Source of the DNA: Acinetobacter pragensis
Lineage (GTDB): Bacteria; Pseudomonadota; Gammaproteobacteria; Pseudomonadales; Moraxellaceae
Length of the DNA: 64,000 bases
Direction of reading: 5' to 3'
Assembly (NCBI RefSeq): GCF_001605895.1
Contig: NZ_LUAW01000016.1
Coordinates: 1-64,000, forward strand
Shown here: one piece after another, positions 7,678 to 24,446 of the stretch
Numbering within the stretch: the first letter of the stretch is position 1
Layout: each line of letters begins with the position of its first letter
The notes under the pieces: model-generated
Seen by the model: the letters and a program-made list of their open reading frames with translations, nothing else
Databases searched by the model: none
What the model was told of the DNA's origin: nothing
Made by a program: the position numbers and the translations under genes

Positions 7678-7705
7678 GTATTACGTTTTAGAAAAATAGT
7701 AATAT
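7678..7705. promoter_or_regulatory. NikR-geometry operator 1
   Basis: GTATTA-N16-TAATAT spans 28 bp, the same overall length as the E. coli NikR operator GTATGA-N16-TCATAC. It covers the predicted sigma-54 start site (about -5 to +23), a position that suits repression. Two similar sites occur at 15514 and 24419. Confidence 0.7.
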
Positions 7706-7719
7706 TGGGGCTGGCAAAT

Positions 7720-8664
7720 ATGAGTTACGCTGCAAAACCGCTTACGCCAAAAAGCAAACTGCTGCTTGGGTTCGGGTCATTTTTAATTCCAATCCTCATT
7801 TGGTGCGCTGTCAGCTATTTACCTTTTATTTGGCATCCGCAAGTTCAAATTACTCAGTCTGGCAGCGTGGCATATCTGCAAACCGGCAGCCGTGTAGACA
7901 AAGCCGTGTTCTATGCCGAAGCTCAAAATGCTGTAAATGCCGGCGCTGAACCGCCTCAAGGCAAACTGGTTAACCCGATTTATCTGCCTGCGCCGCATGA
8001 AGTGGCGAAGGCATTAGTGACCGCGTTTATTACACCGCCAGCACAGCCGGATGCCCCATGGTTTCATCAAAGCCTGTGGCACAGCATTAAAATTGTCTTT
8101 ACAGCGTTTTTCATCGCTTCATTGATAGGCATTCCCTTAGGCATTCTTTGCGGCTTTTCACAAAAAATATCTCAGCTGACTGAACCTTTTGTTGAATTTT
8201 TCCGCTATTTGCCTGCACCGGCTTTTGGCGCATTGGCTGTCGCGATTTTAGGCATTAATGATGCGCCCAAAATTGCCATCATTGTGGTAGGCACGCTGTT
8301 CCAGCAAATTCTGATTATTGCGAATACCACCCGAATGGTTGACAGAGGCTTGATTGAAGCTGGCTACACACTCGGTACCAATAAACTGAAAAGCCTATTC
8401 AATGTGGTCATTCCCGCAGCGCTGCCTGACATCTACCGTGATTTGCGTGTACTGCTCGGATGGGCGTGGACATACCTCATTGTTTCAGAACTGATTGGCA
8501 CAACCACCGGGATTACATGGTTTATTACTCAGCAAGCGCGTTACCAAAACTTTGACAATGTCTATGCCGCTATCCTGATTGTCGGTGTGATCGGTCTGGT
8601 CTGTGATGTCATTTTAATGAAACTTGGCGAACACTTCTTTAAATGGAAAGCAGGAGCAAAATAA
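7720..8664 (+). CDS. ABC transporter permease, NitT/TauT type (guanidine/urea-carboxylase-associated)
   Basis: About 314 residues from the ATG at 7720, which sits nine bases after GGGG; an upstream TTG at 7705 falls inside the operator. A single N-terminal membrane segment is followed by a periplasmic stretch of about 80 residues, then five or six helices. The cytoplasmic E-A-A loop reads E-A-G-Y-T-L-G-T-N-K-L near 215. This family imports nitrate, taurine, cyanate and similar small molecules. Its partners are the ATPase that overlaps it by one base and, probably, the binding lipoprotein at 12097. Context with a guanidine riboswitch suggests guanidine or a guanidino compound as cargo. Confidence 0.8.
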   Translation: MSYAAKPLTPKSKLLLGFGSFLIPILIWCAVSYLPFIWHPQVQITQSGSVAYLQTGSRVDKAVFYAEAQNAVNAGAEPPQGKLVNPIYLPAPHEVAKALVTAFITPPAQPDAPWFHQSLWHSIKIVFTAFFIASLIGIPLGILCGFSQKISQLTEPFVEFFRYLPAPAFGALAVAILGINDAPKIAIIVVGTLFQQILIIANTTRMVDRGLIEAGYTLGTNKLKSLFNVVIPAALPDIYRDLRVLLGWAWTYLIVSELIGTTTGITWFITQQARYQNFDNVYAAILIVGVIGLVCDVILMKLGEHFFKWKAGAK

Positions 8665-9545
8665 TGAAAGCAACCGAATTTAATCCGTCAGAGTATTTCG
8701 ATTCTATTTATGCCCGCCCTGTTATTTTAGAAGCAAAAAAACTCAGTCAAGTATTTAAGCATGGCAAAAATGAACGCACTGTTTTAAATCAGCTGGATCT
8801 AAAAATTCATAAGCGGGAATTTATCTGCGTGATTGGCCCATCGGGCTGCGGTAAATCAACTTTCAGCCGGATTGTAGCCGGACTTGACCCTTACAGCAGC
8901 GGGGCGCTTTTGGTCGATGGCAAAGCCATTGAAGGCCCAAGTCCTGAACGCGGTATGGTCTTTCAAGGCTATACCCTATTTCCATGGAAAACAGTCAAAG
9001 AAAATGTGATGTTCGGCCCTTTAATGAAAGGCGCCAGCAATGCTTCTGCCGAAGCCAGCGCCCGTGAATGGATTGACATTATTGGCTTGGAAAAGTACGA
9101 AAATCAGTATCCGCATCAGCTGTCTGGCGGTATGAAGCAGCGTGTCGCCATTGCCCGCGCGCTGGTGAATGAGCCAAAAATTTTGCTGATGGATGAACCA
9201 TTTGGCGCGCTTGATCCGCATACCCGCCAGAAGATGCAAAAGCATCTCATGGATCTTTGGCAAAACATTGATATCACCATTATTTTTGTAACGCATGATA
9301 TGGATGAAGCCATTCTTTTGGCAGACCGTATTGTCGCACTGAAAGCGAACCCTGGTGAAATTAAAGAAATTATTGAAGTTGACTTGCCGCGCCCGCGCAA
9401 CGCAGAACTGATGCTGACGCCTGAATTTAAACGTCTGCGTGACCGAGTCGATTTCTTGGTGCATGCACAGGAAGATGAACGGGATCCGGCACTTGAGAAT
9501 TTGCCTAAAATTCCGCGCATGACTCAAGTGAGCACCAGTAAATAA
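8664..9545 (+). CDS. ABC transporter ATP-binding protein, NitT/TauT type
   Basis: About 293 residues, starting at an ATG that shares a base with the permease stop (TAATG), so the two are translationally coupled. Walker A is G-P-S-G-C-G-K-S-T near 62, the Q-loop lies in F-Q-G-Y-T-L-F-P-W, the signature is L-S-G-G-M-K-Q-R and Walker B is I-L-L-M-D-E-P-F-G-A-L-D. The roughly 30-residue extension before the nucleotide-binding domain and the 40-residue tail are longer than in TauB or SsuB. It energises the neighbouring permease. Confidence 0.85.
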   Translation: MKATEFNPSEYFDSIYARPVILEAKKLSQVFKHGKNERTVLNQLDLKIHKREFICVIGPSGCGKSTFSRIVAGLDPYSSGALLVDGKAIEGPSPERGMVFQGYTLFPWKTVKENVMFGPLMKGASNASAEASAREWIDIIGLEKYENQYPHQLSGGMKQRVAIARALVNEPKILLMDEPFGALDPHTRQKMQKHLMDLWQNIDITIIFVTHDMDEAILLADRIVALKANPGEIKEIIEVDLPRPRNAELMLTPEFKRLRDRVDFLVHAQEDERDPALENLPKIPRMTQVSTSK

Positions 9546-9628
9546 TTAGCTTGATATTTTTTGACTGCACATCTTTGGGACGGCCCAAATGATGCCATAC
9601 AGCGTTGGACGGCCAATAGAGGAAAAGA

Positions 9629-10639
9629 ATGATGGATGAGCAATATGTATTGCCATTGGTAGATATCTCTCTGTTGAATAGCATGAATGCAGAAGATCGG
9701 CAGCAAGTTGCAAATAAGCTGAATCAGGCCTGCAAAGACGTCGGATTTTTATATATTCGCGGTGAGCAATTTCAGCCAGAACTGTTCAGCAATTTACTAA
9801 AAGTGACGCAATCTTATTTCTCTCAGCCTTTAGAGAAAAAAATGCAGAACTATATCGGCCAATCCTTAAATCATAGCGGCTATGTTCCTGTCGGCGAGGA
9901 GCAATTTACCGAATCCAGTATTGACCTGAAAGAAGCCTATGACATTAACTATGACTATCAAGGCGCAGCGTTAAAATTCCCGCTGCTCGGCCCGACGCAA
10001 TGGCCTGAAGATACAGCGTTTAAACAGCATGTATTGTCCTATTATCAGCACTTAAAAGCCATTGGCCAGCAAATTTTTCAGGCGATTGCAGTTGCATTAA
10101 ATTTAGATGAGCATCATTTTGATGCCTATATTTCCCATGCGCCCAGCCAGCTTCGGCTTCTGCATTATCCATTCAATCCTGCCGCACAGGATGCTGAGGG
10201 CATTGGCGCGCACACAGACTATGAATGCTTTACCCTGCTTTTGCCCACCGCGCCGGGCTTGCAAGTACTGAGCAAACAAGGTGAATGGATTGATATTCCA
10301 TTACTGAAAAATACGCTGGTCATGAATATTGGCGATATGATGGAAATCCTGTCCAATGGGCGCTGGCTGGCGACCAAACACCGCGTTAAAAAAGTGCAAC
10401 AGGAACGCTATTCTTTTCCGCTATTTTTCTCTTGCGATTATGACTATGTCATTCAGCCCGTTATTCCGAATGAACAGCCGCGCTACCCTGCGCTTAAAAG
10501 CGGTGAGCATTTGTTTAACCAAACGGCGCAAATCTTCAGTTACCTGAAAAAGAAAGTCGCCTCAGGTGAAATCGTCCTGCAAAATGCCCGCCCGCTATCT
10601 TCATTCGGCATGCCTGAAAACCCAATGGAGCCAAAATAA
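9629..10639 (+). CDS. Fe(II)/2-oxoglutarate-dependent oxygenase, isopenicillin N synthase-like
   Basis: 336 residues. The double-stranded beta-helix carries the iron ligands H195-x-D197 and H251 and the 2-oxoglutarate-binding R260-x-S262, all intact. The N-terminal D-x-G-F-L-Y segment near 37-42 is typical of the plant/bacterial IPNS-like group. It lies between the importer ATPase (84 bp upstream) and an unknown gene that overlaps its stop, in an operon with a sigma-54 promoter and the NikR-type operator. Known enzymes of this superfamily (ethylene-forming enzyme, plant homoarginine 6-hydroxylase) release guanidine from arginine derivatives. I infer a similar guanidine-releasing or guanidino-hydroxylating role. 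The substrate is unknown. Confidence 0.8.
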   Translation: MMDEQYVLPLVDISLLNSMNAEDRQQVANKLNQACKDVGFLYIRGEQFQPELFSNLLKVTQSYFSQPLEKKMQNYIGQSLNHSGYVPVGEEQFTESSIDLKEAYDINYDYQGAALKFPLLGPTQWPEDTAFKQHVLSYYQHLKAIGQQIFQAIAVALNLDEHHFDAYISHAPSQLRLLHYPFNPAAQDAEGIGAHTDYECFTLLLPTAPGLQVLSKQGEWIDIPLLKNTLVMNIGDMMEILSNGRWLATKHRVKKVQQERYSFPLFFSCDYDYVIQPVIPNEQPRYPALKSGEHLFNQTAQIFSYLKKKVASGEIVLQNARPLSSFGMPENPMEPK

Positions 10640-11541
10640 TGAATTTATTTGAAGCGCTCAAGTTAATTCCAACTCAGCCTGCTGAAGATGCTGTAATTCC
10701 AGCATCGTTATTTGGCGCTTTCCGCCGTAAAAGCATCAGTTTCTTTAATGGGCTCACTGATGAAAAAACCATTGTGTACTGGTTTCAGTCAAAAACCTTC
10801 ACTATTGATTTACGTCTAAAAAACCAGCGGGATACCCCATTGACAGAACGCCAAGGCTGGATTGGTGAAACATTGTGGGAGCCTGAAGCTGAACTGCTGT
10901 CTTGGTGCGTTGCAAAGAACGGTAATTTTCAGAATCACATACAGTGGCCAGAACCTGCCAAACTCCATACGGTCGGCAATTGTATTTTAGAGTTCTCCCC
11001 AAATAACACTTATGTCGAAGACTGGCGGCAACAGGCCGACTCTGGCGTCTTCCTTGGTCTGCGCATTCAGTCAGCCCAGCATCTTGCAACTGGAAAACAG
11101 ATTGCCTTAGACGGCGGGCTGATTATTTGTGGTCAATACATGGCCTATGCACAGTCGCGCTTGCCCGAATTACAGAATCAGTTATCTGAATACTCAAATT
11201 TAAATGAGGCTGTGCAGCTGAGCGCTGATACTAGCGCAACAGTGAAAGCAATTGAAAATTTTGAAGTGTCAATTTCTTTAGCGAACCAGAAAATTGATTA
11301 CAGCACCCAAAGTTTTAAAACCGGTCAGCAAATGCTTCTGGATGACTTTGAGGTTCTGGATGCTCAGACGTTAAGCCAGCAGAAAATGATTAATGGTGAA
11401 CCTTATACCGTGCTGTTTAAGGTGGATACCTATGCCCCGCATTATGAATTTCAGCGCAGTACCTCTGCAAGTTCTGCATGTGAAAATTGGTATGCCGCAG
11501 AACAGAATCATTTGGCTTTTCATGCTGCAGCAGTCAAATAA
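10639..11541 (+). CDS. Unknown protein encoded with the guanidine-locus oxygenase
   Basis: 300 residues with no signal peptide or membrane segment and no domain I recognise. The start ATG overlaps the oxygenase stop (TAATG), so the two are almost certainly made together. Isolated aromatic and acidic patterns (V-E-D-W-R-Q, W-I-G-E-T-L-W-E) suggest a beta-rich cytoplasmic protein. A product-binding or accessory enzyme role in the same step as the oxygenase is possible but only inferred from the overlap. Confidence 0.7.
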   Translation: MNLFEALKLIPTQPAEDAVIPASLFGAFRRKSISFFNGLTDEKTIVYWFQSKTFTIDLRLKNQRDTPLTERQGWIGETLWEPEAELLSWCVAKNGNFQNHIQWPEPAKLHTVGNCILEFSPNNTYVEDWRQQADSGVFLGLRIQSAQHLATGKQIALDGGLIICGQYMAYAQSRLPELQNQLSEYSNLNEAVQLSADTSATVKAIENFEVSISLANQKIDYSTQSFKTGQQMLLDDFEVLDAQTLSQQKMINGEPYTVLFKVDTYAPHYEFQRSTSASSACENWYAAEQNHLAFHAAAVK

Positions 11542-11550
11542 AAGGAAAAT

Positions 11551-11880
11551 ATGTCTTTTTTATATTTAGTTATTGCTGTCATTGCAGAAGTCCTCGCAAC
11601 CTCTGCTTTAAAGGCATCCAATGGATTTACAGAACTTTGGCCCGTCATTTTGATGATTGCCGGCTATGCCATTGCACTTTTCTTTTTAGGCCTGACGTTT
11701 AAATCTATTCCGATGGGCTTGGCATATGCGCTGTGGTCAGGTGCCGGCATTATTTTGATTTCATCCGTCGGCTGGATTTACTTTAAGCAGCAGCTGGATA
11801 TGGCGGCAATGATTGGGTTAGCTTTTATGATTTTAGGCATTGTCATTATCAATGTTTTTTCTAAAAGTACCCATCTTTAA
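11551..11880 (+). CDS. abeS: SMR-family multidrug efflux protein, AbeS/EmrE-like
   Basis: 109 residues and four membrane helices. The essential membrane glutamate is E13 in I-A-E-V, and the loop A-Y-A-L-W-S-G-A-G-I and helix-4 pattern I-V-I-I-N-V-F-S-K-S-T-H-L match A. baumannii AbeS closely (from memory). It exchanges protons for lipophilic or quaternary cations and belongs to the Qac/EmrE branch, not the Gdx guanidinium-exporter branch. AAGGAAA precedes the ATG. It starts only nine bases after the 300-residue gene, so it may be co-transcribed with the importer operon. Confidence 0.82.
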   Translation: MSFLYLVIAVIAEVLATSALKASNGFTELWPVILMIAGYAIALFFLGLTFKSIPMGLAYALWSGAGIILISSVGWIYFKQQLDMAAMIGLAFMILGIVIINVFSKSTHL

Positions 11881-12052
11881 CATTTACACCCTGTTTTACT
11901 CATTTTTATTTGCATCAGAACTTCGTTTTGCGGTTTTTTTCGCTTGCAGGGTTTAGCCATTCTGTTTTAATGGCGGCTCAGCCTGTTTGAAAACCCAAGC
12001 CTGCATGCAGAAAACGGTATTTAAGATTTTATTGGCTGTATGTATTTGACAC

Positions 12053-12082
12053 AAAAAATCCCAAGATATCTTGGGATTTTTT
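12053..12082. terminator. Terminator of the allophanate hydrolase operon
   Basis: A perfect palindrome with AAAAAATCCCAAG / CTTGGGATTTTTT arms. It lies 15 bp past the stop of the binding-protein gene on the minus strand and probably also stops transcripts coming from the left. Confidence 0.85.
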
Positions 12083-12096
12083 CAAATGCGCTTTAC

Positions 12097-13119
12097 TTAT
12101 TTCAGCTCTTCAACCAATGCTGGATAAATCGAGCCGTCTACATCCATTTCTGTTTTATAAATGCCATTAGCCACGTTGAATTTATTGACATGATAGCTTG
12201 AACCATACAAAGAATCAAAACCCTCACCCTTGCTAAACACTTTCTTATTCGCTTCTAAATCCAGCAAGTGTGTTCCGCCAATAAATTGTTCATACTGCGC
12301 AGGATCTACACCTACACGGGTTGACATAATTTTCACTGCATCGGCATGCGTTGCAGGGTCATTAATATATTTAACAGTTTTGTCCCAAACCTGAATAATC
12401 TTTTTCCATTCTTCTTTATTGGCCGATAAATGGGCCATATTGACGGTTAAGGTGTCATAAATTAAGCCGGGCTTATCCTTTGAAGTATAGATAATTTTAG
12501 ACCCAGCAACAGTTTTTAAGGCTTGATTCGCCACTGGCTGCCAGACCGCAATCGCTGAAATATCCGGGCTGGCAAATACTTGCGGCAATTCATTGGTCAT
12601 GGTATTGACCAGTTTTACATCCGATAGCTTAATTTTGGCATCTGTTAAAGCAGTGGACAGCAGTAAGTGATCAACCAGTCCTTTTTCAGTCGCAATATTT
12701 TTGCCTTTCAGCTCACTGATATTATTAATGCCAGCCTTGGCAATAATCACATCGTTGCCCGCCGAATAATCTGTCGCCATAATCATGACACCTTTGGTGC
12801 CGCCAGAACCTGTCACCAGATTATCGCCATTGGTTACTAAAACGGCATCCAGCTGATTAGCGGCAAAAGCAGATAAAGACGCGGAATAATCGAACCATTT
12901 AAAATCTGCATTAACTCCTGCTTCTTTCAGCCAGCCCTTTTCAATTGCAACCTGCCATGCGACAAAACCGGGCCAGTCACTATAGCCAATGGTGATGGTT
13001 TTTTCAGAAGTCTGTCCTTCTGCTTTCGCGTTCGGTTCTGGCGCCTTGGCGGTATTGTCACAGCCGCTCAGCAGAATTGCGGTAACTACAGATGCGGATA
13101 ACAGCGCTTTTTTGATCAT
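12097..13119 (-). CDS. ABC transporter substrate-binding lipoprotein, NMT1/NrtA type
   Basis: About 340 residues from the ATG at 13119, which overlaps the allophanate hydrolase stop by four bases (ATGA); an in-frame codon further upstream is unlikely. The signal sequence ends in the lipobox L-L-S-G-C near residue 20. The binding fold begins with I-G-Y-S-D-W-P-G-F-V-A-W, typical of the taurine/nitrate/thiamine-precursor class. It is probably the missing periplasmic partner of the permease/ATPase pair at 7720-9545, although it belongs to a different operon on the opposite strand. The shared operator type supports that pairing. Confidence 0.82.
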   Translation of the reverse strand: MIKKALLSASVVTAILLSGCDNTAKAPEPNAKAEGQTSEKTITIGYSDWPGFVAWQVAIEKGWLKEAGVNADFKWFDYSASLSAFAANQLDAVLVTNGDNLVTGSGGTKGVMIMATDYSAGNDVIIAKAGINNISELKGKNIATEKGLVDHLLLSTALTDAKIKLSDVKLVNTMTNELPQVFASPDISAIAVWQPVANQALKTVAGSKIIYTSKDKPGLIYDTLTVNMAHLSANKEEWKKIIQVWDKTVKYINDPATHADAVKIMSTRVGVDPAQYEQFIGGTHLLDLEANKKVFSKGEGFDSLYGSSYHVNKFNVANGIYKTEMDVDGSIYPALVEELK

Positions 13120-14927
13120 GATGCGATTTCCCCTATGCCAGAGCATTTGAATTTGGTATTTGTGGATTGGATGGATTGAATATAGTCACGCCAGCCGCCA
13201 AAATGGCTGATATCTAAGGCGTCTTCCAAGGCATGGCCTTCGCAAATAAAGCCTTTGGCCCAGCTGCCGTCTGCCAGCTGCACATTGCCAATGCCTAAAG
13301 GTGCTGGAACTTCCACAACAATGTGACCGAAATTGGCTAAGGGAATATCCCAAACTTCGACATCAATGGCTTGACCGCCTTTACTGGCGTACTGCAGCCC
13401 TGGTTTTGGCGGCGCGGTGTTTTTCAAGGCATATAATTTGTAATTTGGCGCCGTTTTAGTGGCTTTGAGCAAAGTGCCGCAGCGTGTGCTTAACTGAAAA
13501 TTCAGCGGCATGCCTGTCAAATGCGCGCCCACCACCGCCAGCTGCACTGAATGGGCTGATGTTATTTTGTCAGAAGGTTCATAGCTGATTTCAGAGGTGC
13601 CCAAAGGCAAATCCGCTGCTTGCTGCCAAGCCTGAGCAAAATTTGCCAGCGCTTGATCCATCCATGCAGAAGCAATAAATGTCACCCCTGTCGGAAGGCC
13701 ATCTGCTCGAATGGCATTCGGCAATGCGATAGCAGATAAATCTGCAAAATTGACAAAATTGGTATAAGCGCCCATATGGCTGTTTTTCACAAGCGGGTCG
13801 GCTTCAACTTCGCTGATTTTATAAATAGTCGGTGCAGTCGGTACCATTAAGGCATCGAAAGGCGCCAGTGCTAGGTTAATTTTCCGTGCCAAATCTGCAC
13901 GTTCATATTCTGCCTGCATGGCATCTACTGCAGAAAATTGATCCGCTTGCGCGATAATTTGACGAATCACAGCATGCGTCTGTTCACGCTTAACCATTTT
14001 TTCTACAGCGCTGGTGCGCTCTGCCACCCAAGATTTATTGTAAAGCGCAGAGGCCAATTGATTAAAAACCGTAAAATCGATTGATTCCACTGTATAGCCC
14101 AATGCTTTTACACGTTCCACAGCCTCAAAAAATGCCTTTTCTGACGCGGTATCACCATAAAACTCCAGCTGTTGCGGTATTGCAATTTTTGCTTTAGAAA
14201 ATTGAGTCGGCACATTTGCAGGATGCTGGCGAGAGTATTCATCTGCTGCGTCATAGCCTTGCATCACCTGTGCTGCCTGCCATGCATCGTCTGCGCTTAA
14301 AGCGAAAACTGAAATCACGTCTATGGTGCGGCACGCAGGAATTAAGCCGGCAGTAGAAAACCAGCCTTTGGTCGGCTTTAAACCGACAATATTATTATGG
14401 CCTGCCGGCACACGGCCTGAACCGGCAGTATCTGTGCCCAATGAAAATGGCACAATGCCTTTAGCGACAGCGACTGAAGAGCCTGAGCTTGAACCTCCGC
14501 TGATATATTCGGGGTTAAAACTGTTTTTAACCGCGCCATAAGGTGAACGCACACCCACTAAGCCCGTTGCAAACTGATCTAAATTGGTTTTCCCTAATAC
14601 AATTGCGCCAGCTGCTTTAAGTTTAGCCACGACAGCAGCATCGGTTTCTGCCAAATAGCAAGCTTCTTTGCATGCAGCTGTAGTATGAAAACCAGCAGCA
14701 TCAATATTATCCTTAACGGCAAACGGAATGCCGTACAGCGGCAAATCTGCTGGAGAAAGGCCATTCAAGGCAGAAAACTGCATTTGCAGCTGCGCATCAT
14801 TGGCGATTTCAATCCATACATGGCCATCGTTCTGAATGGCGGCTGCATAGGCCTTCAGGTCTTGCAGTTGAATGCTTCCAGAGGCATAGGCCTGTTTCCA
14901 GTCTTGTATAGTCCATAGGTCTTTCAC
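13116..14927 (-). CDS. atzF: Allophanate hydrolase
   Basis: 603 residues, full length. It hydrolyses allophanate to two ammonia and CO2. The amidase core carries the Ser-cisSer-Lys triad: the lysine in K-D-N-I-D near 70 and the serines in G-G-S-S-S-G-S-S near 145-150. A C-terminal domain of about 150 residues (from about 450) is typical of AtzF. The start is GTG after AGGAG, three bases past the NikR-like gene; the next gene overlaps by four bases. In this locus it finishes guanidine or urea breakdown; the carboxylase lies 4.3 kb away. Confidence 0.92.
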   Translation of the reverse strand: MKDLWTIQDWKQAYASGSIQLQDLKAYAAAIQNDGHVWIEIANDAQLQMQFSALNGLSPADLPLYGIPFAVKDNIDAAGFHTTAACKEACYLAETDAAVVAKLKAAGAIVLGKTNLDQFATGLVGVRSPYGAVKNSFNPEYISGGSSSGSSVAVAKGIVPFSLGTDTAGSGRVPAGHNNIVGLKPTKGWFSTAGLIPACRTIDVISVFALSADDAWQAAQVMQGYDAADEYSRQHPANVPTQFSKAKIAIPQQLEFYGDTASEKAFFEAVERVKALGYTVESIDFTVFNQLASALYNKSWVAERTSAVEKMVKREQTHAVIRQIIAQADQFSAVDAMQAEYERADLARKINLALAPFDALMVPTAPTIYKISEVEADPLVKNSHMGAYTNFVNFADLSAIALPNAIRADGLPTGVTFIASAWMDQALANFAQAWQQAADLPLGTSEISYEPSDKITSAHSVQLAVVGAHLTGMPLNFQLSTRCGTLLKATKTAPNYKLYALKNTAPPKPGLQYASKGGQAIDVEVWDIPLANFGHIVVEVPAPLGIGNVQLADGSWAKGFICEGHALEDALDISHFGGWRDYIQSIQSTNTKFKCSGIGEIAS

Positions 14928-14930
14928 GGC

Positions 14931-15383
14931 TTAAGCTCCTTCTGTCTGTATGTTGTTTTGCGGAATTGGCGGCATGACCGCATTCATTAATTCCAGATGC
15001 CCTTTGGTCACACCTTTTAAGACAATAAAATGCTGGCTAATGGCTTTCAGCTCACTACTCAGCCCTTGCAGGATCATGACTTCTAAAATTTTTTTATCAT
15101 CAAGCTGAATATGCAATGAGCTGACGACTTGTTCTAAAAACTGCTGCTGCAAATCTAAAAGCTGCATCCGCAGCGCGGCTACACTCGCGTCATACAGCAA
15201 GGTAAAGGTGCCGACCATGACTGCATTGCGCTGTTCCTGATCGGCAATCAGATGTTTATTAATCATGTCCACAATGGCTTGCGAGCGGCTTTCGTAATGC
15301 TGATCAACAATCTTTTGATCCAGCGCATTGACCGTCATTTCCGGTACAGTGATGCTGATACGCGCCAATTTCTGCTTAGGCAC
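14931..15383 (-). CDS. NikR-like ribbon-helix-helix regulator lacking most nickel ligands
   Basis: About 150 residues from the GTG at 15383, which follows AAGGA by seven bases. An N-terminal ribbon-helix-helix (R8-I-S10-I-T12, then helices to about 50) is followed by an ACT-like C-terminal domain, as in NikR. Compared with E. coli NikR, R8, S10 and T12 align with the base-contacting R3, T5 and T7. Of the nickel ligands only His87 is kept (H91); His76, His89 and Cys95 align with Q80, Q93 and I99. It is first in an operon with allophanate hydrolase and the binding protein. It probably represses three guanidine-locus promoters in response to something other than nickel. Confidence 0.8.
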   Translation of the reverse strand: MPKQKLARISITVPEMTVNALDQKIVDQHYESRSQAIVDMINKHLIADQEQRNAVMVGTFTLLYDASVAALRMQLLDLQQQFLEQVVSSLHIQLDDKKILEVMILQGLSSELKAISQHFIVLKGVTKGHLELMNAVMPPIPQNNIQTEGA

Positions 15384-15513: not shown

Positions 15514-15541
15514 GTAATACAAAAAATTCATTTGGTAATAC
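15514..15541. promoter_or_regulatory. NikR-geometry operator 2
   Basis: GTAATA-N16-TAATAC, 28 bp. It covers the predicted sigma-54 start site of the NikR-like/atzF/binding-protein operon (about -1 to +27), which would give autorepression. Confidence 0.68.
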
Positions 15542-15550
15542 CATTAGAAA

Positions 15551-15566
15551 TGCAGAATCTGTGCCA
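15551..15566 (-). promoter_or_regulatory. Sigma-54 promoter of the NikR-like/atzF operon
   Basis: TGGCACAGATTCTGCA on the minus strand has a perfect -24 element, C in place of the first T of the -12 element, and correct GG-GC spacing of ten bases. The predicted start is near 15540. Confidence 0.65.
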
Positions 15567-15821
15567 AGGTTTAAAATCATCAAAAACAGCAATGCCGTGC
15601 CAATTTGATATTTTTTGTGCGAAAAATGTGCAGAAAATTGCACTTTAATGTGCGTGCTGCACCACCGACGTTACTTTTATAGTTTTGTTATTTTTTAAAT
15701 TTTTCTTTACGGCTCACGGCATATCACCATATAAGCAGTTCATTTGAAACCATCAACGCGCGCCACAAAAAAATAAACATCATTTATAATGCTATTGATC
15801 GGCCTAATGTCAAATAAGCTT

Positions 15822-16904: not shown

Positions 16905-16905
16905 A

Positions 16906-16937: not shown

Positions 16938-17134
16938 ATTCATAAGGGCTTCCTATCTCAAGCGTTACCTAACATATATTTAACATAGATCCTGTTGCTA
17001 AATAGAGCACGCTCTAAACACACAGACCAACAATTATTTGAAATGCACCCAATAGCTGATTTTATGCTCTTTTTTTGACAATTTATTTCAGCCGCAATCA
17101 GGTAAAATGAATCAAAGATTTTTGAGTTCATATC

Positions 17135-19102
17135 ATGTTAGCGTTAGCACGCAACCAATTCATATTGATCAGTTTATTCAGCATGAGCCTGCTTCAAGGA
17201 TGTCAATTGGTCACATTAAAGGAGGATAGACTTAGTTCATCTTTAAACAATAAAACAGATAATATTTTAACCAATCAGCAGCTCAGTTCTGCCAGTCAGC
17301 ATTTACTGTTAATGGTCAATGAAACGGGCGCATCTTGCTTGAGCCAGCTGGAAAACTGCATTGCCAAATTGCGCAGCAATGAAACTTTAGATTCAGAACA
17401 GATTTATGCAGCCGCGAGTGAACTTTATTTAGCCCGCGCCTTAGGTGCAGACCAGCATCATGAATGCAAAAAAGATTTGACACAGCAGTTAAGCAAACTG
17501 CCTCCAACTAAAATGAAACTGTGTCTGGATCAGCAGCTGGCTGACTTTGATTTAAGCCTGCGCTACAGCTATGTTTACTTGTTTAAATCTGAACAGCCGC
17601 CAGAATCACGCTTATTTGATTTGCGTCAGGGACAAGTCCGCACCTTTTATAATGTCGCGCTTTCCCGCCTCATTACCACTTCATATACCCGATTTAACTT
17701 TCAGCAGCTGCCGGAAAGCCTGATGCTCGGCGCTTCACAATATAATTTCGACTATCAATACTACCCAGCCCTTGAGCATGCTGCGATTGAAAAACTTCAA
17801 TCCAGCTACAATTTAAATTTTTCAGGCTTGAATGTAATTAACCGGCAAGAAGGCATCGGGTCAGAGTTTGTATTGGTCAAAAAGCCAAAGGTACAAGGCA
17901 TAAACCAGCGCTTTATTTTAGACCCTGAACATTATTATCAAGATAAAGCTAACCCCAATATTCATGAAGCGCGCTATTTATCCATCAGCGCAACAGCTGC
18001 GCCAAGTGCCGGCAGCAATATTGATGAAACCCTTTCTTTGAAAGCGCCATTGAATATCACGCTCTACAATCCTTATCAGTACAAAACAGCAGACATTAAT
18101 TCCCGGACTTATACCCTAACAGCCAACTACTCTGTACCTTATGGTTTGTGGCTTTCTGAAAATAAACTCGGAAAATCGGGCTACTGGACGCTGCTGAACA
18201 AGGAAGATAACCTGCGTATGCCGCATATATTTATGCTGGAACCCTATCAGCCAAATAAAAAAGTGATTGTCATGATTCATGGCCTTGCCAGCAGCCCAGA
18301 AACATGGATTTCATTAACCAATAATATTATGGGTGATCAGAAACTGCGGGATAATTACCAAGTTTGGCAGGTATTTTATTCCACCAATATGCCAATATTT
18401 GAAAGCAGATTCCAAATTAATGCCTTGCTTAAGCAAGCTTTTGCAGCGGTGCAGCCGAATACTCCTTCTGCGAAAGACGCCGTACTGATTGGGCACAGTA
18501 TGGGCGGCATTATCAGCCGGCTGCTGGTGAGTGATGCCGACATTTCTGCGCAAGCCATACCTCTAATGAATTATGAGCAAAATATGCAGCTGCAGCGGAA
18601 TCCGATTATTCGCGAGCGTTTTGTATTTAAACCGATTCAGCCGATCAGCCGCGCCATTTTTATTGCTGCTCCACATCACGGCACGGCGTATGCTGACCGC
18701 TGGTTTACGAATTTAGCTAAAAAAATGGTGGTGCTTCCGCTCAGTTTTTTAAACGATGTGAATGTGCAGATTCCAAATTCAAATAATTCTACAGCCGGAT
18801 TAGTCAAAACAGGGCCTGCAGATTTAAGTCAAAAATCACGTTTTATGCTGCTGACCAGCAATGTTTTGCCCAGCTCGTCTGTTCCATATCACTCCATTAT
18901 GGGAAATCAGGCTAAAAGCCATTTAATTGATCAAATGTCAGATGGTATTGTGCCTTATCAAAGTTCTCACCTTGATGGTGCTGTATCAGAAAAAGTGATT
19001 ACTGGAGGTCATTCTATTCATGAATCCCCTGATGCGATTTTAGAATTGCGACGGATTTTGCGGGAACATCTGGAACAGAATAAATCGGCTAATAATCAAT
19101 AG
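17135..19102 (+). CDS. Alpha/beta-hydrolase lipoprotein (lipase/esterase-like)
   Basis: 655 residues. An N-terminal signal with lipobox L-L-Q-G-C near 22 predicts an outer-membrane or periplasmic lipoprotein. The first 370 residues or so are a helical/beta region I do not recognise. The hydrolase domain starts at V-I-V-M-I-H-G-L-A-S-S near 380, with the nucleophile in G-H-S-M-G-G near 454, an acid in D-G-I-V-P near 611 and the histidine in G-G-H-S-I-H near 628. It probably cleaves lipid or ester bonds outside the cytoplasm. It is a single gene between its own terminator and the converging carboxylase. Confidence 0.8.
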   Translation: MLALARNQFILISLFSMSLLQGCQLVTLKEDRLSSSLNNKTDNILTNQQLSSASQHLLLMVNETGASCLSQLENCIAKLRSNETLDSEQIYAAASELYLARALGADQHHECKKDLTQQLSKLPPTKMKLCLDQQLADFDLSLRYSYVYLFKSEQPPESRLFDLRQGQVRTFYNVALSRLITTSYTRFNFQQLPESLMLGASQYNFDYQYYPALEHAAIEKLQSSYNLNFSGLNVINRQEGIGSEFVLVKKPKVQGINQRFILDPEHYYQDKANPNIHEARYLSISATAAPSAGSNIDETLSLKAPLNITLYNPYQYKTADINSRTYTLTANYSVPYGLWLSENKLGKSGYWTLLNKEDNLRMPHIFMLEPYQPNKKVIVMIHGLASSPETWISLTNNIMGDQKLRDNYQVWQVFYSTNMPIFESRFQINALLKQAFAAVQPNTPSAKDAVLIGHSMGGIISRLLVSDADISAQAIPLMNYEQNMQLQRNPIIRERFVFKPIQPISRAIFIAAPHHGTAYADRWFTNLAKKMVVLPLSFLNDVNVQIPNSNNSTAGLVKTGPADLSQKSRFMLLTSNVLPSSSVPYHSIMGNQAKSHLIDQMSDGIVPYQSSHLDGAVSEKVITGGHSIHESPDAILELRRILREHLEQNKSANNQ

Positions 19103-19152
19103 GGATCAGTTTTCTAAAGCGGGTTAATCAGTCCTGTAAACATCTTTAAATT

Positions 19153-19179
19153 AAAAACTGCCTCTATAGGCAGTTTTTT
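19153..19179. terminator. Bidirectional terminator between lipase and carboxylase
   Basis: AAAAACTGCC / GGCAGTTTTTT arms with a short loop serve both converging genes. Confidence 0.85.
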
Positions 19180-19215
19180 CTGGGTTTATTGCTTAAGCAC
19201 GGTTTGGCAAAACTG

Positions 19216-22200
19216 TTAAGCCACAGGCGCCAACGTAAATAACACCTGCCCCGTTTTTACCGTTTGCCCTTTTTCAATGGTAATGGCATCTACACGCATC
19301 CGCTCAGGGGCAATAATTGGAATTTCGATCTTCATCGCTTCAATCACGGCAAGTGTTGCACCTTCTTCCACAATATCGCCTGAAGCGCATTCGATTTTCC
19401 AAATTGAACCCGGCATATGTGATTCCACTGCACAGCCTCCATCTGGAATCGCCACTGCTTCGCCATCATCCACTGCATCTAAGCTTTCAGAGACGTACTC
19501 TGCCAAACCGGCTTCATGCCAGCGGCGGCGCTCATCATCAAAATTGGCTTGCTGCACCGCTTTAAATTCAGCAATTGAGCTTTGATGTTCATCTAAAAAA
19601 TCATTGTATTCTTTAAGATTCAGCACACCTTCTTTAATACGCAGTTTTAAACGGCCCGCTTTAAAGTCTTCACGCATCTGCATCAGTTCATCTTCAGACA
19701 CTTCATAAAACTTAATCTGATCAAAAAAGCGCAGCAGCCACGGCATTCCCTGTTCAAAATCAGGATTTTTGCGGTAGCGTGACCACATTTGTGTGGTACG
19801 GCCCACAAACTGATAGCCGCCAGGGCCTTCCATGCCGTATACGCACATATATGCACCGCCAATACCTACGGCATTTTCAGGTGTCCATGTCCGTGCTGGG
19901 TTGTATTTGGTGGTCACCAAACGCTGACGCGGATCCAGCGGTGTCGCCACCGGCGCTCCCAAATAGACATCGCCTAAGCCCATCACCAAATAATTGGCGT
20001 TATAGACCACATCTTTTACGGCCTGTTTATCTTTTAATCCATTAATACGGCGGATGAATTCGATATTGTCGGGACACCACGGCGCATCACTGCGCACAGT
20101 TTGTACATAACGCTCAGTCGCCAATTGCGTTTGCGAGTCTTCCCAAGCCAGCGGCAAATACACGGTACGTGACGGTACTTGCATTTGCGTGACATCCGGC
20201 AGTTCAGTTTCAGCCACTTGCAGCAAACGCAGCAAATCAATTTGATCCAGTTGAATCGAGTTAAAATGAATTTGCAGCGACCGAATGCCCGGTGTCAGGT
20301 CAATTATACCGCTGATGTTTTGATCTTTGACCCATTGCATCAGCGCATGAATACGGAAACGCAGATTTAAATCTAAAACTAGCTCACCATATTCCACCAA
20401 TAAATAGTTGTTTCCTGCAGGACGGTACACTACATCTGGCGTCCCATTCTGACCTTTTAATGTATCTAAAATGGCAGATTTTAAGGTGCTGTTTTCAGAA
20501 TAGAATGCGTCATTAAAACAAACTGCTTGAGTACTATTGGCTTGAATTCCTGCATGATATTTTTGATTCAGCAATTTGGCCTGATGATAGCTGACAGGGA
20601 CAAATTTAACTTTATCGCCTGCTTTCAGCTGACCAAGTTTCCAAAGCTCAGAATGGATCACCACCGCAGGACAGACAAAACCGCCTAGGCTTGGCCCATC
20701 TGGCCCAAGAATAATAGGCATATCGCCAGTAAAGTCGATTGCGCCAATGGCATAGGCATTGTCATGAATATTGGACGGATGCAGCCCCGCTTCACCGCCA
20801 TCCTCACGCGCCCATTCAGGTTTAGGGCCAATCAGGCGAATACCGGTACGGCTAGAGTTAAAGTGAATCTCAAAGGTATTCGCAAAGAAAGTATCAATAT
20901 CATTTTTGGTAAAAAAATCCGGCGCGCCATGCGGCCCGTACATTACGGCTATTTCCCATTCATGGCTAAAAGCAGGTATTTGATCAGGGTTTAGGGCAAC
21001 CGTCTCAGTGGATGCATGCGCCGTAATAGGCAGCATATCACCTATCAGCAAGTTTCGTCCGGCATGGCCGCCAAACTGGCCAAGGGTAAAAGTTGCCTGC
21101 GAACCTAAATATTCAGGCACATTCAGACCGTTTTTAATACCGATATAACTGCGGCAGCCTGTGGTTATTTTCCCGCATTTTAAAATTTGGCCTTTGCGCA
21201 CGTTGACTGTTTGCCACATGGGTACAGCGATGCCATCCAATGTTGAAGGCATATCTCCGCCAGTGATTGCAATTTGACTGTCGCAATGGAACTTTAAGGC
21301 TGGGCCTTGCAGAGTGCATTCTAAACCAGCTGTATTTGACGCATTTCCAAGCAGCTGATTAGCGACATTTAAAGATAACGGGTCAATAGCGCCGGATGGC
21401 GGAACACCAACATCCCAATAACCCAAACGGCCTGTGACATCTTGCACTGCGGTTTGAATGCCGGCTTGCAGTACTTCAATCTTTTGTGTTTTCCATTCAA
21501 AAGTATTCAGAAACCGTGTCGTTTGCGTGCCCGCTTTAAATACGTCACCGTCTATGATGTTTTGCAGATATTCAAGATTGGTTTCTATACCGGCAACAGA
21601 TGTTTTCGCCAATGTATTGGTCATGGCTTGAATTGCAGCCTCTCGGTCATCAGCAGTGACAATGATTTTTGCAATCATCGGATCATAAAATGACGATACC
21701 GTGGAGCCTGTTTCTACCCAAGTTTCATTGCGCGCGTTTTCATCAAATTCGACATGGGTAAGAAGCCCAGCGCTTGGCTGAAAGTTTTTGATTGGATCTT
21801 CTGCATAGAGCCGCACTTGAATTGAGTGGCCTTTAGATTCCAGTTTCTGAGCTGGCGCGCTCCAAGTGCCTGCCGCCAAAGTCACCATCCATTCGACCAA
21901 GTCCACACCAAAGACTTGCTCGGTCACGCCGTGTTCCACTTGCAGACGGGTATTGACCTCTAAGAAATAGAATTCTTGCGTGTCCGTATCCATAACAAAT
22001 TCAACTGTGCCAGCAGAACGGTAATTGACTGATTGCATCAGCTGAATCGCGACAGTTTGGATATAGGTGCGCTGTTCATCATTAATGTGCGGCGCAGGTG
22101 TTTCCTCAATCACTTTTTGATTGCGGCGCTGCACGGAACAGTCCCGTTCCCCCAATGCCAATACTTGCCCTTGCCCATCCCCGAAAATTTGCACTTCGAT

Positions 22201-22827
22201 ATGACGTGCATTTTGCACAAATTTCTCTAAATACAAGCCGGCATCTTTAAAATTGGCTTGCGCCAAATATGAAACAGTTGCGTAAGCATCTTTCAGTTCG
22301 GTTTCATTCCACACTAAGCGCATGCCAATGCCGCCGCCGCCGGCAGTGCTTTTCAGCATCACTGGATAGCCAATCCGCGCAGCTTCAGTCAGCGCTTCGG
22401 CTTCATCAGCCAGCAGGCCGCTTCCCGGCAAGAGCGGAACATTGGCTTGGATTGCCAATTCACGCGCAGTATGCTTTAAACCAAATTCGCGCATTTGATT
22501 CGAGTTCGGCCCAATAAAGGCAATACCTTGCGCTTCACACAGATCACAAAACTCTGCATTTTCAGACAAGAAGCCGTAACCGGGATGAATGGCTTGCGCC
22601 CCAGTTTGTTTGGCTACGTCTAAGATTTTTTCGACATTCAAATAACTTTGGCTGGCCGGCGCTGCGCCAATATAAACGGCTTCATCGGCCAAGGTAACAT
22701 GCAAGGAATCTCGATCTGCTTCGGAATATACGGCAACAGACTGAATGCCTAATTTTTTAAGCGTACGAATTACTCGGCAGGCAATTGCACCGCGGTTGGC
22801 AATTAAAACTTTAGTTAATGCTGTCAT
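19216..22827 (-). CDS. Biotin-dependent guanidine (urea-type) carboxylase
   Basis: 1203 residues. Domains in order: biotin carboxylase (1-450, starting K-V-L-I-A-N-R-G with G-G-G-G-I-G-M near 167), carboxyltransferase made of the allophanate-hydrolase-subunit-2-like (about 470-760) and subunit-1-like (about 800-1040) domains, and a biotin carrier domain with E-A-M-K-I (biotinyl lysine K1166). This is the urea carboxylase architecture. The operon opens with a guanidine-I riboswitch and two DUF1989 genes, which identify guanidine carboxylases: guanidine plus bicarbonate and ATP gives carboxyguanidine. It starts three bases after the preceding gene. The residue that separates the two substrates was not aligned here. 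Confidence 0.88.
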   Translation of the reverse strand: MTALTKVLIANRGAIACRVIRTLKKLGIQSVAVYSEADRDSLHVTLADEAVYIGAAPASQSYLNVEKILDVAKQTGAQAIHPGYGFLSENAEFCDLCEAQGIAFIGPNSNQMREFGLKHTARELAIQANVPLLPGSGLLADEAEALTEAARIGYPVMLKSTAGGGGIGMRLVWNETELKDAYATVSYLAQANFKDAGLYLEKFVQNARHIEVQIFGDGQGQVLALGERDCSVQRRNQKVIEETPAPHINDEQRTYIQTVAIQLMQSVNYRSAGTVEFVMDTDTQEFYFLEVNTRLQVEHGVTEQVFGVDLVEWMVTLAAGTWSAPAQKLESKGHSIQVRLYAEDPIKNFQPSAGLLTHVEFDENARNETWVETGSTVSSFYDPMIAKIIVTADDREAAIQAMTNTLAKTSVAGIETNLEYLQNIIDGDVFKAGTQTTRFLNTFEWKTQKIEVLQAGIQTAVQDVTGRLGYWDVGVPPSGAIDPLSLNVANQLLGNASNTAGLECTLQGPALKFHCDSQIAITGGDMPSTLDGIAVPMWQTVNVRKGQILKCGKITTGCRSYIGIKNGLNVPEYLGSQATFTLGQFGGHAGRNLLIGDMLPITAHASTETVALNPDQIPAFSHEWEIAVMYGPHGAPDFFTKNDIDTFFANTFEIHFNSSRTGIRLIGPKPEWAREDGGEAGLHPSNIHDNAYAIGAIDFTGDMPIILGPDGPSLGGFVCPAVVIHSELWKLGQLKAGDKVKFVPVSYHQAKLLNQKYHAGIQANSTQAVCFNDAFYSENSTLKSAILDTLKGQNGTPDVVYRPAGNNYLLVEYGELVLDLNLRFRIHALMQWVKDQNISGIIDLTPGIRSLQIHFNSIQLDQIDLLRLLQVAETELPDVTQMQVPSRTVYLPLAWEDSQTQLATERYVQTVRSDAPWCPDNIEFIRRINGLKDKQAVKDVVYNANYLVMGLGDVYLGAPVATPLDPRQRLVTTKYNPARTWTPENAVGIGGAYMCVYGMEGPGGYQFVGRTTQMWSRYRKNPDFEQGMPWLLRFFDQIKFYEVSEDELMQMREDFKAGRLKLRIKEGVLNLKEYNDFLDEHQSSIAEFKAVQQANFDDERRRWHEAGLAEYVSESLDAVDDGEAVAIPDGGCAVESHMPGSIWKIECASGDIVEEGATLAVIEAMKIEIPIIAPERMRVDAITIEKGQTVKTGQVLFTLAPVA

Positions 22828-22830
22828 TGC

Positions 22831-23484
22831 TTATGCCTCCCCGCCTTCATGCACCACCAGCTGAATCGGTGTCGGGTTATAGCCGCTGCACGGATTGTTC
22901 AACTGCGGGCAATTTGAAATCAGAACAATCAGATCCATCTCTGCTTTAATTTCGACAAATTTACCTGGCGCCGAAATACCGTCATCAAATTTCAATGCGC
23001 CTTCGGCAGTTACCGGCACATTCATGAAAAAATTAATATTGGGACCAATATGGCGGACATTTAAGGCGTGCTTTTGCGCAACCGGGTGTTTTGCCAAAGC
23101 ATACATAAAGTTGTTGCGGCAGCTGTGCATCGGATATTTATCATGTGCATAGCGCACCGTATTGCTTTCACATGAACAGGCACCGCCCAAAGTGTCGTGT
23201 CGGCCGCAGTTATCATCATTGATGACGGCGATAGGCTGCCCGAAATTGCTGTACAGCACGGTGCCTTTTTCAAGGTAAATTTGCTGATTGATCGCTAATG
23301 TGTCGGTTGCGCTGTAACGCTCTTCTGGATTGCAGGCAGAGATAAACAATGTATCTACTGCTTGATTGCCTTCAAGATCAATGATGCGGAAATACTGGCC
23401 CTTTTTTACTTCGCACATCCATGCTTCACCTGCAGGGCATACTTCGCTTAAAACTGATTTCGTAAATGTTTGCAATACAGTCAT
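22831..23484 (-). CDS. DUF1989 protein, probable carboxyguanidine deiminase subunit (UAAP2/CgdB)
   Basis: 217 residues, a single DUF1989 domain. Cysteine-rich G-G-A-C-S-C-E and M-H-S-C-R-N-N-F segments mark the likely metal or active site, and F-F-M-N-V-P-V and G-Y-N-P-T-P-I are typical family motifs. Pairs of such proteins next to a guanidine carboxylase form carboxyguanidine deiminase, which turns carboxyguanidine into allophanate and ammonia. Older annotation calls them urea amidolyase-associated proteins. It is the middle gene of the riboswitch operon, 15 bp after the first. Which paralogue is subunit A or B is assigned by size and order. Confidence 0.82.
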   Translation of the reverse strand: MTVLQTFTKSVLSEVCPAGEAWMCEVKKGQYFRIIDLEGNQAVDTLFISACNPEERYSATDTLAINQQIYLEKGTVLYSNFGQPIAVINDDNCGRHDTLGGACSCESNTVRYAHDKYPMHSCRNNFMYALAKHPVAQKHALNVRHIGPNINFFMNVPVTAEGALKFDDGISAPGKFVEIKAEMDLIVLISNCPQLNNPCSGYNPTPIQLVVHEGGEA

Positions 23485-23499
23485 GATGCTTCTCCTGCC

Positions 23500-24246
23500 T
23501 TAAAATGATGAAAGTGCGTAATAACGGGCATTATTTTGAAATGCGCGCTGATTTTGCGGACAAGAATCACGGCAGATGTCATTGCCGCTGAGCGCATTGG
23601 CTTTGAATAAAGACAATTGAATATTTGAAGGCTGATAAGATGCGCTATTGTCCAAGCCATGCGGCGCAGCAGACAGAAAGACTAAGCAGTCCATTTCAAA
23701 ACGCAGTTCAATGATTTGATCTGTGTTGTCAGAAGCGGCATAAGACAAAGCGCCTGCATCATTTGGCGTCACTTTTGAAAATAGGTTTACTGTTGCGCTT
23801 AAGTCAGTCTGGCTTAAAGAAAATTTAGCCATTTCTACCAGCAATCCATCTAAACCGCTTTGCTGCATGTCATTGCGCGCATCTTGAAAGGCGCAGACAC
23901 CATATTTTTTTTCGATTTGTTCAGGCCGGCTTGCACCGCAAAAAGTATCATTCCATGCATGGTCATCTTTAACAATGGATGCCATAACACGGCCTAAGTC
24001 TGAATACAGCACATTGCCTGCAGTAAGATAGGCTGTATGCTGGCCTTTTAAACTGTCAGGCATGTTGTAGCGTTCTAATTTATCTTCTGCATTTACACAG
24101 AACAGGGAAACATTGGCATTTTGGCTGAGTGCCTTAAGCTGTAAAATTGCGCCTTTGCGGATGCGTCCAGACCAATGATGCCCGCCCGGCAGCGTTTCAG
24201 TCCAAAGAGTTTGGTTGTCGTGGTATGTTTGTTCAAGTTCGCCCAT
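23500..24246 (-). CDS. DUF1989 protein, probable carboxyguanidine deiminase subunit (UAAP1/CgdA)
   Basis: 248 residues, homologous to the next gene (shared Y-N/A-x-D-x-x-K or T-D-T-L segment, T-x-x-V-L-Y-S-x-x-G, D-x-C-G). The equivalent of the cysteine segment here is T-F-C-G-A-S. A C-terminal tail with C-R-D-S-C resembles a metal or disulfide site missing from its paralogue. It is the first gene after the guanidine-I riboswitch, 32 nt from the aptamer, with AAGAGGT as ribosome binding site. The two paralogues probably form one enzyme acting after the carboxylase. Confidence 0.82.
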   Translation of the reverse strand: MGELEQTYHDNQTLWTETLPGGHHWSGRIRKGAILQLKALSQNANVSLFCVNAEDKLERYNMPDSLKGQHTAYLTAGNVLYSDLGRVMASIVKDDHAWNDTFCGASRPEQIEKKYGVCAFQDARNDMQQSGLDGLLVEMAKFSLSQTDLSATVNLFSKVTPNDAGALSYAASDNTDQIIELRFEMDCLVFLSAAPHGLDNSASYQPSNIQLSLFKANALSGNDICRDSCPQNQRAFQNNARYYALSSF

Positions 24247-24253
24247 GCGCTCT

Positions 24254-24280
24254 ACCTCTTAAGGTTGCTATATTTAACCT
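24254..24280 (-). promoter_or_regulatory. Candidate riboswitch expression platform at the ribosome binding site
   Basis: Downstream of the aptamer, AGGTT (24280-24276) can pair with AACCT (24266-24262), while the same ACCT can instead pair with AGGT of the ribosome binding site (24257-24254). The two pairings exclude each other, which would allow control of translation. This is inferred from pairing only. Confidence 0.4.
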
Positions 24281-24373
24281 CCCGGGCTTTTATCCCTCCG
24301 TGCAGTTCTTGCGAACCGTGAACTCTCGGTCTCAGGCACAGCTGCTGCTAAAATCAGACTGTCGGAACCCTAG
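24278..24373 (-). ncRNA. Guanidine-I (ykkC-yxkD) riboswitch aptamer
   Basis: On the minus strand the conserved blocks occur in order: CTAGGGTTCCG (24373-24363), then ACCGAGAG (24330-24323), then ACGGAGGGATAAAAGCCCG and GGAGG (24302-24278). These match the ykkC class consensus, including the AAAGCCCGGGAG core that binds guanidinium. It lies in the leader of the deiminase/carboxylase operon, about 14 nt after the predicted sigma-54 start. Riboswitches of this class switch genes on when guanidine binds. Confidence 0.93.
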
Positions 24374-24397
24374 ATCACTTTATGTTATTGAGGTAAA

Positions 24398-24413
24398 TGC
24401 AAATGACGTGCCA
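24398..24413 (-). promoter_or_regulatory. Sigma-54 promoter of the guanidine carboxylase operon
   Basis: TGGCACGTCATTTGCA matches the sigma-54 consensus TGGCACG-N4-TTGCW perfectly. The predicted start near 24387 places the whole riboswitch in the transcript. Confidence 0.83.
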
Positions 24414-24418
24414 ATTTA

Positions 24419-24446
24419 GTATTACGTTTTTACGTATTGGTAATAC
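24419..24446. promoter_or_regulatory. NikR-geometry operator 3
   Basis: GTATTA-N16-TAATAC, a perfect inverted repeat (8-bp arms AGTATTAC / GTAATACT when extended by one or two bases). It lies just upstream of the -24 element (about -32 to -59), unlike the other two copies, which cover their start sites. Confidence 0.75.

Follow-up and report, generated by a model that had tools for sequence, protein, structure and literature searches.

The operator of Escherichia coli NikR has the sequence GTATGA-N16-TCATAC (PMC7055735), and in Helicobacter pylori NikR the metal is held in a square-planar His3Cys nickel site made up of His88, His99, His101 and Cys107 (PMC9860126). For guanidine, a 2025 review gives riboswitches as the only receptors known so far other than enzymes and transporters, and lists transcription factors that bind guanidine among possible future discoveries (PMC12186494). 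Here we describe three 28 bp palindromic sites and the gene for a NikR-like protein at the guanidine carboxylase locus of Acinetobacter pragensis, within a stretch of 64,000 nucleotides (positions 1 to 64,000 of contig NZ_LUAW01000016.1, assembly GCF_001605895.1) to which we refer as the window. The protein encoded at 14931–15383 belongs to a clade that lacks the nickel site and is linked to guanidine carboxylase genes in several groups of proteobacteria. We consider it probable that the three sites are its operators and that it represses the importer operon, its own operon and the carboxylase operon.

The pattern GTAWTA-N16-TAWTAY is found in exact form at only three places in the window, 7678–7705, 15514–15541 and 24419–24446, which bears out a sequence-only reading of this DNA that had claimed three sites of identical spacing and NikR-type geometry. 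Indeed, the 28 bp geometry is identical to that of the E. coli NikR operator and the half-site is one base away from GTATGA (PMC7055735). If up to two mismatches are allowed the pattern is unspecific, with 67 strand matches in the window and 38 expected (standard deviation 7.6), and the claim depends on the exact form. Across the organism's own genome (3.7 Mb) the exact form has nine strand matches at seven places and the pattern written backwards also has nine; the 6+16+6 pattern thus fails to set the locus apart from background and was rejected as a genome-wide discriminator in favour of a sharper 7 bp half-site. Comparison of the three sites gives this longer half-site as GTAWTAC, itself nearly palindromic, with a 14 bp gap (GTAWTAC-N14-GTAWTAC). 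The four remaining places in the genome lack one or both GTAWTAC halves, and three of the four lie within open frames of 316–570 codons. Perfect matches to the longer form number two in the genome, both at the guanidine locus (15514 and 24419), against none for the reversed control, and the site at 7678 has a single mismatch to it (final base T). When spacers of 4–30 were scanned in the window with GTAWTAC halves, matches with at most one mismatch were seen at N14 alone (three). The genome-wide scan proposed in the sequence-only reading was therefore too loose as written, but in its sharper form the motif is nearly confined to the locus.

Each site had also been placed beside a sigma-54 promoter, and all three do adjoin elements fitting TGGCAY-N5-YTGCW. 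Start sites were predicted from the -24/-12 positions alone, with the T of TGGC taken as -26, and operons were inferred from gene spacing and strand; on this basis two of the sites lie over the predicted start and one lies upstream of -24 (Table 1), just as that reading had it. The genome encodes rpoN (one sigma-54 match, 222 bits) and ntrC (736 bits, cut-off 558.6). A second TGGCAC..TTGCT element, its spacing short by one base, is situated upstream of the regulator promoter at 15588–15602 (minus strand).

Conservation within the genus provides further insight. Among 175 genomes searched, the regulator gene is matched in 97; two of these carry it in broken form (G018 and G112), and their exclusion leaves 95 genomes with an intact regulator, that is, one match across most of the query. 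UAAP1 is present in 98 of the 175 genomes (split in G118, shortened in G001) and the guanidine-I aptamer in 99, nearly the same genomes as those with the regulator. In the 95-genome set the operator occurs at 95 of 95 regulator promoters and at all 81 permease promoters covered, with 0–2 mismatches in both cases, and at 95 of 95 carboxylase promoters with 0–3 mismatches; relatives that retain the genes also retain the sites. Together with the near confinement of perfect sites to the locus, this passes those refuting tests of the sequence-only reading that could be run on sequence. Fourteen permease promoters were left out of the count, and partial starts were dropped (the L207 permease and the U1, or carboxylase operon, start of L046, in whose genome, G042, it was taken from L216 instead). 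Best matches to the reversed motif in the same promoter regions mostly have four to five mismatches, and reach three or fewer in 15 of 81 permease, 6 of 95 regulator and 5 of 95 carboxylase regions. A half-site like that of E. coli NikR, NTATGA, is found in 16 of the 271 operators, 14 of these at the carboxylase promoter.

The position of the operator is conserved as well. Its first base lies between -6 and -1 at the permease promoter and between -6 and +4 at the regulator promoter, and at the carboxylase promoter it lies at -59 in 92 of 95 genomes (-58, -56 and -56 in the others). At least one perfect palindrome is found in 90 of the 97 genomes with a regulator match versus 10 of the 78 without (Fisher p = 4e-29, which is overstated, the genomes being related), and the reversed-motif control gives 15 of 97 and 17 of 78 respectively. 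As 153 of the 161 perfect palindromes in the 95 genomes lie at the three promoters, the regulon would appear to be essentially the guanidine locus; a palindrome of G019 counted outside these promoters may in fact belong to its permease promoter. In G014 a fourth perfect operator (L063, 7999–8026), together with a sigma-54-like element, precedes an extra binding-protein gene, an extension of the regulon.

From these observations we propose the following model. A tetramer made of two ribbon-helix-helix (RHH) dimers would read the 7 bp GTAWTAC halves, 21 bp apart centre to centre, much as NikR does. At the importer and regulator operons the operator lies over the sigma-54 start site, and the bound protein would keep the promoter from opening. 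The carboxylase operator, at -59..-32, falls between the upstream edge of the sigma-54 element and GTGC-rich stretches that are candidate activator sites, and protein bound there would hinder either the closed complex or contact with the activator. Nitrogen status would enter through sigma-54 and its activator, ntrC being present, and two devices would respond to the substrate: the riboswitch in the carboxylase RNA and, at the operons without a riboswitch, the NikR-like protein. Binding of the three sites by the NikR-like protein is, to judge from the sequence, very likely and repression by it likely, whereas guanidine or a pathway compound as inducer is a possibility suggested by this division of labour between protein and riboswitch.

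The arrangement of the guanidine-I aptamer may account for the upstream operator. The aptamer constitutes the start of the RNA, its CTAGGG being conserved at +13 to +18 in 97 of 98 cases in the genus, and since it fills the leader, any operator in that place would have to use bases that also belong to the RNA. No riboswitch was matched near operators 1 and 2 in a search that included weak guanidine riboswitches; that operators occupy the start only where there is no riboswitch match suggests that the protein supplies the substrate response there. Locus L300, with no guanidine-I aptamer at the gathering score, has its UAAP1 operator at the start site, preceded by a sigma-54 element, and is one case favouring displacement of the operator by the aptamer. 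The sequence-only reading had suggested a different mode of action at the carboxylase operon; the aptamer in the leader can explain the upstream position, although the rigid spacing at -59 leaves room for a distinct mode. A guanidine-I aptamer with one palindrome is also seen in G165 (C1:1645269-1645376), a genome with no UAAP1 or regulator match.

In such a distinct mode the regulator would still repress the importer operon and its own, yet would switch on the carboxylase operon when bound at -59..-32, either by touching the sigma-54 polymerase or by giving the DNA a shape suited to the activator. That spacing to the carboxylase promoter is fixed in 92 of 95 genomes and drifts at the other two promoters would fit activation, as would the precedent of H. 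pylori NikR, which activates or represses different targets (PMC9860126). However, a site touching the -24 element would be unusual for an activator, the aptamer-occupied leader offers a simpler reason for the position, and in L300 the site of this gene lies at its start. We regard activation as unlikely.

Several observations nonetheless weigh against plain repression at all three operons. The fixed -59 spacing, looser elsewhere, could reflect protein contact, for example in activation, and this rigidity is the chief feature that plain hindrance would leave unexplained. The sole hint of NtrC sites upstream is an excess of the half-site GCAC/GTGC with no clean dyad (observed versus expected from a single-base shuffle: 223 vs 46 at U1, 115 vs 41 at the regulator and 78 vs 39 at the permease; the sequences are related). 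Six carboxylase operators have three mismatches despite an intact regulator, while three or fewer are also found in 5 of 95 reversed controls, and for these six operators the -59 position is a stronger sign than the sequence. Finally, the three genomes that have UAAP1 and no intact regulator (G100, with stops in UAAP1; G112, with a regulator pseudogene; and G052) give a mixed picture: G112 and G100 each have a carboxylase operator with three mismatches, yet the permease operator of G112 is perfect, as is the carboxylase operator of G052. The carboxylase match of G052 is shortened, and the regulator, hydrolase, binding protein and permease are not seen in the 20 kb examined; loss of the regulator there may be recent. 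G018, which has no UAAP1 match, carries a decayed regulator and a decayed operator beside a metallopeptidase gene (L066, 5860–6340).

A conserved, unannotated small open reading frame (ORF) occupies the interval from operator 2 to the regulator gene; it probably encodes a genuine small protein, as the leading gene of the regulator operon. All of the 95 intact loci in the genus have a counterpart of 35–55 amino acids with an RAG-like core in this interval, a count that is partly by construction as the search demanded an [RT]A[GR] motif. Independent signs are the conserved position, the Shine-Dalgarno-like leads and the placement of 52% of differences at third codon positions. The relatives share the core ..FL.ELLSVRAG.YIKQ, notwithstanding that 731 of 1317 changed codons are non-synonymous, and the sequence is therefore only loosely held; neither Pfam nor NCBIfam gave a match. 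The presence of this frame in every intact locus, with 4 bases separating its end from the regulator start in the window, would be in keeping with a system that has no small-molecule effector, in which the regulator is an autoregulated brake titrated or relieved by the small protein encoded just before it. We think this improbable: the domain that once bound metal retains a conserved fold, suggesting a ligand, and the small ORF was sought in the genus only.

The regulator itself passes the Pfam cut-offs for NikR_C (64.5 bits, cut-off 22) and RHH_1 (21.1, cut-off 20.5). A predicted structure of the monomer, used for fold only, has a mean predicted local distance difference test score of 79.8 and a predicted template modelling score of 0.54; all 50 structural matches listed are NikR, and the C-terminal domain alone superposes on 1q5y and 2y3y at 0.8–1.2 Å, although the whole chain superposes poorly (root-mean-square deviation >10 Å). 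These features, together with the operator geometry, might be taken to indicate an ordinary NikR, responsive to nickel, whose control of guanidine genes is incidental, but none of five NCBIfam NikR models reaches its cut-off (95.1 vs 105, 81.4 vs 111, 72.5 vs 119, 70.3 vs 83 and 68.2 vs 175.45 bits). In a tree of 58 proteins a guanidine-linked clade (35 rows, 20 from the genus) is separated from NikR (23 rows) with support of 100/99; the tree holds 20 of 78 distinct proteins, and row L304 is a long branch of unsure placement. The His3Cys set (HHHC) is present in 23 of 23 NikRs and in none of the 35 clade rows. At the four ligand positions the window regulator reads Q-H-Q-I, all 20 genus rows have Gln in place of the third histidine, and the cysteine position is occupied by I, V, T or M throughout the clade. 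The ligand check covered the 78 distinct proteins (74 intact genus proteins, two broken, that of G087 and one true NikR), and HHHC occurs in 0 of the 74. Some clade members outside the genus retain three histidines. The route through the carboxylase is biotin-dependent, not nickel-dependent, and no nickel-uptake or nickel-enzyme genes are seen among the scanned proteins of the locus. On the missing ligands nickel regulation was rejected: residue identity excludes sensing of the known type in the genus and makes it unlikely in the clade as a whole, and an ordinary NikR is hardly credible. The protein thus appears to read DNA in the manner of NikR and not to be a nickel regulator; one regulon of three operons under the 14931–15383 product, as proposed from the sequence alone, agrees with the sites, their geometry and their conservation, but the protein would not be NikR in function, its ligands being lost. 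The NikR of G059 (L067) lies beside genes that, from their ORFs, read as CbiM/CbiQ/ATPase-type.

Outside the genus the same arrangement recurs beside the same genes in Methylovorus, Halothiobacillus, Alkanindiges and one Burkholderiales genome. Of the best 80 of 172 relatives, the eight loci outside the genus (L289–L296) were examined, where clade members show 42–48% identity; one of the eight looks the same as contig G087:C53, with the same protein, in the order of the window. Seven of these loci contain importer genes and at least one of UAAP1, UAAP2 and carboxylase, with one site each (0–1 mismatch) upstream of the binding-protein gene, and the eighth contig contains, of the query genes, the regulator only. 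In the 123 kb of the seven loci a spacer of 14 gives seven matches with 0–1 mismatch and 26 other spacers combined give one. Read by eye, L289, L290, L292 and L294 have a sigma-54-like element before the site (with one mismatch in L290), the site starting at -7 to +3, and guanidine-I or -II aptamers are present in four of the eight loci (L290, L291, L294 and L295). A class-wide search for the regulator matched 42 of 369 genomes at 1e-15; with flanks of up to 1.5 kb it lies beside UAAP1/UAAP2 in six of the seven top matches (at least 130 bits, own genome excluded), as opposed to 0 of 22 loci among the lower matches, which are NikR. A gene read as glutamine-synthetase-like ends just before the regulator in L065 (73–1107) and is found upstream of it in L290–L292 and L294. 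That some other protein uses the sites, for example the product of the LysR gene at 24606–25523 upstream of operator 3 (close homologues, 88–89%, in 3 of 31 loci, some of which end earlier) or a sigma-54 activator, seems very improbable, as outside the genus the site goes with members of the NikR-like clade, in genomes without the gene it falls to background level, and a 28 bp dyad fits a NikR tetramer.

The genes at issue are those of guanidine assimilation (Table 1). The importer operon runs permease, ATPase, dioxygenase, partner gene and SMR exporter; the regulator operon contains the NikR-like gene, allophanate hydrolase and binding protein; and the carboxylase operon comprises UAAP1, UAAP2 and carboxylase. 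A riboswitch, the carboxylase, UAAP1/2 and allophanate hydrolase are all present, as in a guanidine carboxylase locus. UAAP1 and UAAP2 we take to be the carboxyguanidine deiminase, UAAP1 being one half of it.

Table 1. Features of the guanidine locus in the window; promoter-relative positions refer to predicted start sites.
Feature	Position	Strand	Remarks
Operator 1	7678..7705	+	GTATTACGTTTTAGAAAAATAGTAATAT; -5..+23 of importer operon
Operator 2	15514..15541	.	-1..+27 of regulator's own operon
Operator 3	24419..24446	.	-59..-32 of carboxylase operon
Sigma-54 promoter, importer operon	7657..7672	+	TGGCATCATAGTTGCT; TGGCAT-N5-TTGCT
Sigma-54 promoter, regulator operon	15551..15566	-	TGGCACAGATTCTGCA; TGGCAC-N5-CTGCA
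Sigma-54 promoter, carboxylase operon	24398..24413	-	TGGCACGTCATTTGCA; TGGCAC-N5-TTGCA
NikR-like RHH regulator, 150 amino acids	14931..15383	-	GTG start with AAGGA upstream; listed ORF extends to TTG 15446
Conserved unannotated small ORF, 36 amino acids	15388..15498	-	Between operator 2 and regulator; ends 4 bases before GTG start
Guanidine-I riboswitch aptamer	24277..24384	-	67.2 bits, gathering 63; begins at about +4 of carboxylase operon
ATP-binding cassette (ABC) permease	7720..8664	+	ORF listed from TTG 7705; ATG 7720 with GGGG upstream is the likelier start
ABC ATPase	8643..9545	+	Family match
2-oxoglutarate-Fe(II) dioxygenase, MgdH-like	9629..10639	+	Pfam domains and place beside next gene (PMC12508155)
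Protein with no family match, in a position like that of MgdL (N-(hydroxymethyl)guanidine lyase)	10639..11541	+	Gene order only
SMR-family exporter	11551..11880	+	PF00893
Periplasmic substrate-binding protein	12097..13146	-	Best NCBIfam TIGR03427, 131.7 bits, under cut-off 333.9
Allophanate hydrolase AtzF	13116..14927	-	TIGR02713 above cut-off
Urea/guanidine carboxylase	19216..22827	-	TIGR02712 above cut-off
UAAP2	22831..23484	-	TIGR03424 above cut-off
UAAP1	23500..24246	-	TIGR03425 above cut-off

The locus therefore offers a concrete candidate for a guanidine transcription factor, complete with operators, promoters and a predicted start-site geometry, and the candidate regulator is present in 95 of 175 genomes of the genus and in clade members beyond it, methylotrophs included. 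Tentatively, and with some doubt, we suggest that the NikR fold, originally a metal sensor, has become a sensor of guanidine, methylguanidine or carboxyguanidine; this would be the first transcription factor for such a compound, parallel to the riboswitches, serving operons that lack one and possibly modulated in the genus by a small protein. Two further suggestions are that a metalloregulator fold has lost its metal and retained its DNA code, and that a riboswitch and a DNA-binding protein act in parallel in the control of one pathway. Among open-licence full texts we found no paper linking a NikR-type protein to guanidine genes; NikR and urea carboxylase are both mentioned in passages of PMC2667541, with no link drawn between them there.

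How far, then, does this system resemble those already described? Operator shape, half-site (one base off) and fold are already NikR's; as far as our literature searches reach, the clade, its regulon, the sigma-54 promoters and the pairing with a riboswitch are new. With the NikR proteins of E. coli, H. pylori and Pyrococcus horikoshii the regulator has in common the RHH and NikR_C domains, the fold and the spacing of a 28 bp operator with two half-sites, but it differs in lacking His3Cys, in forming a separate clade, in a C-terminal tail with PP (13 aligned rows), and in its guanidine genes and sigma-54 promoters. The delta-proteobacterial NikR signal GTGTTAC-N13/14-GTAACAC is likewise one base per half from the present operators, although that signal marks nickel transporters and hydrogenases (PMC545781), unlike the guanidine genes here. 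Known guanidine carboxylase operons share with this locus the carboxylase, deiminase, allophanate hydrolase, ABC importer, dioxygenase with its partner gene, and guanidine-I aptamer (PMC12186494, PMC12508155), and in enterobacteria the importer itself is under guanidine-I (PMC12186494). The control described for those operons is by guanidine-I or -II riboswitches (PMC12186494, PMC12508155), whereas here a DNA-binding regulator apparently covers all three operons, of which two have no riboswitch match.

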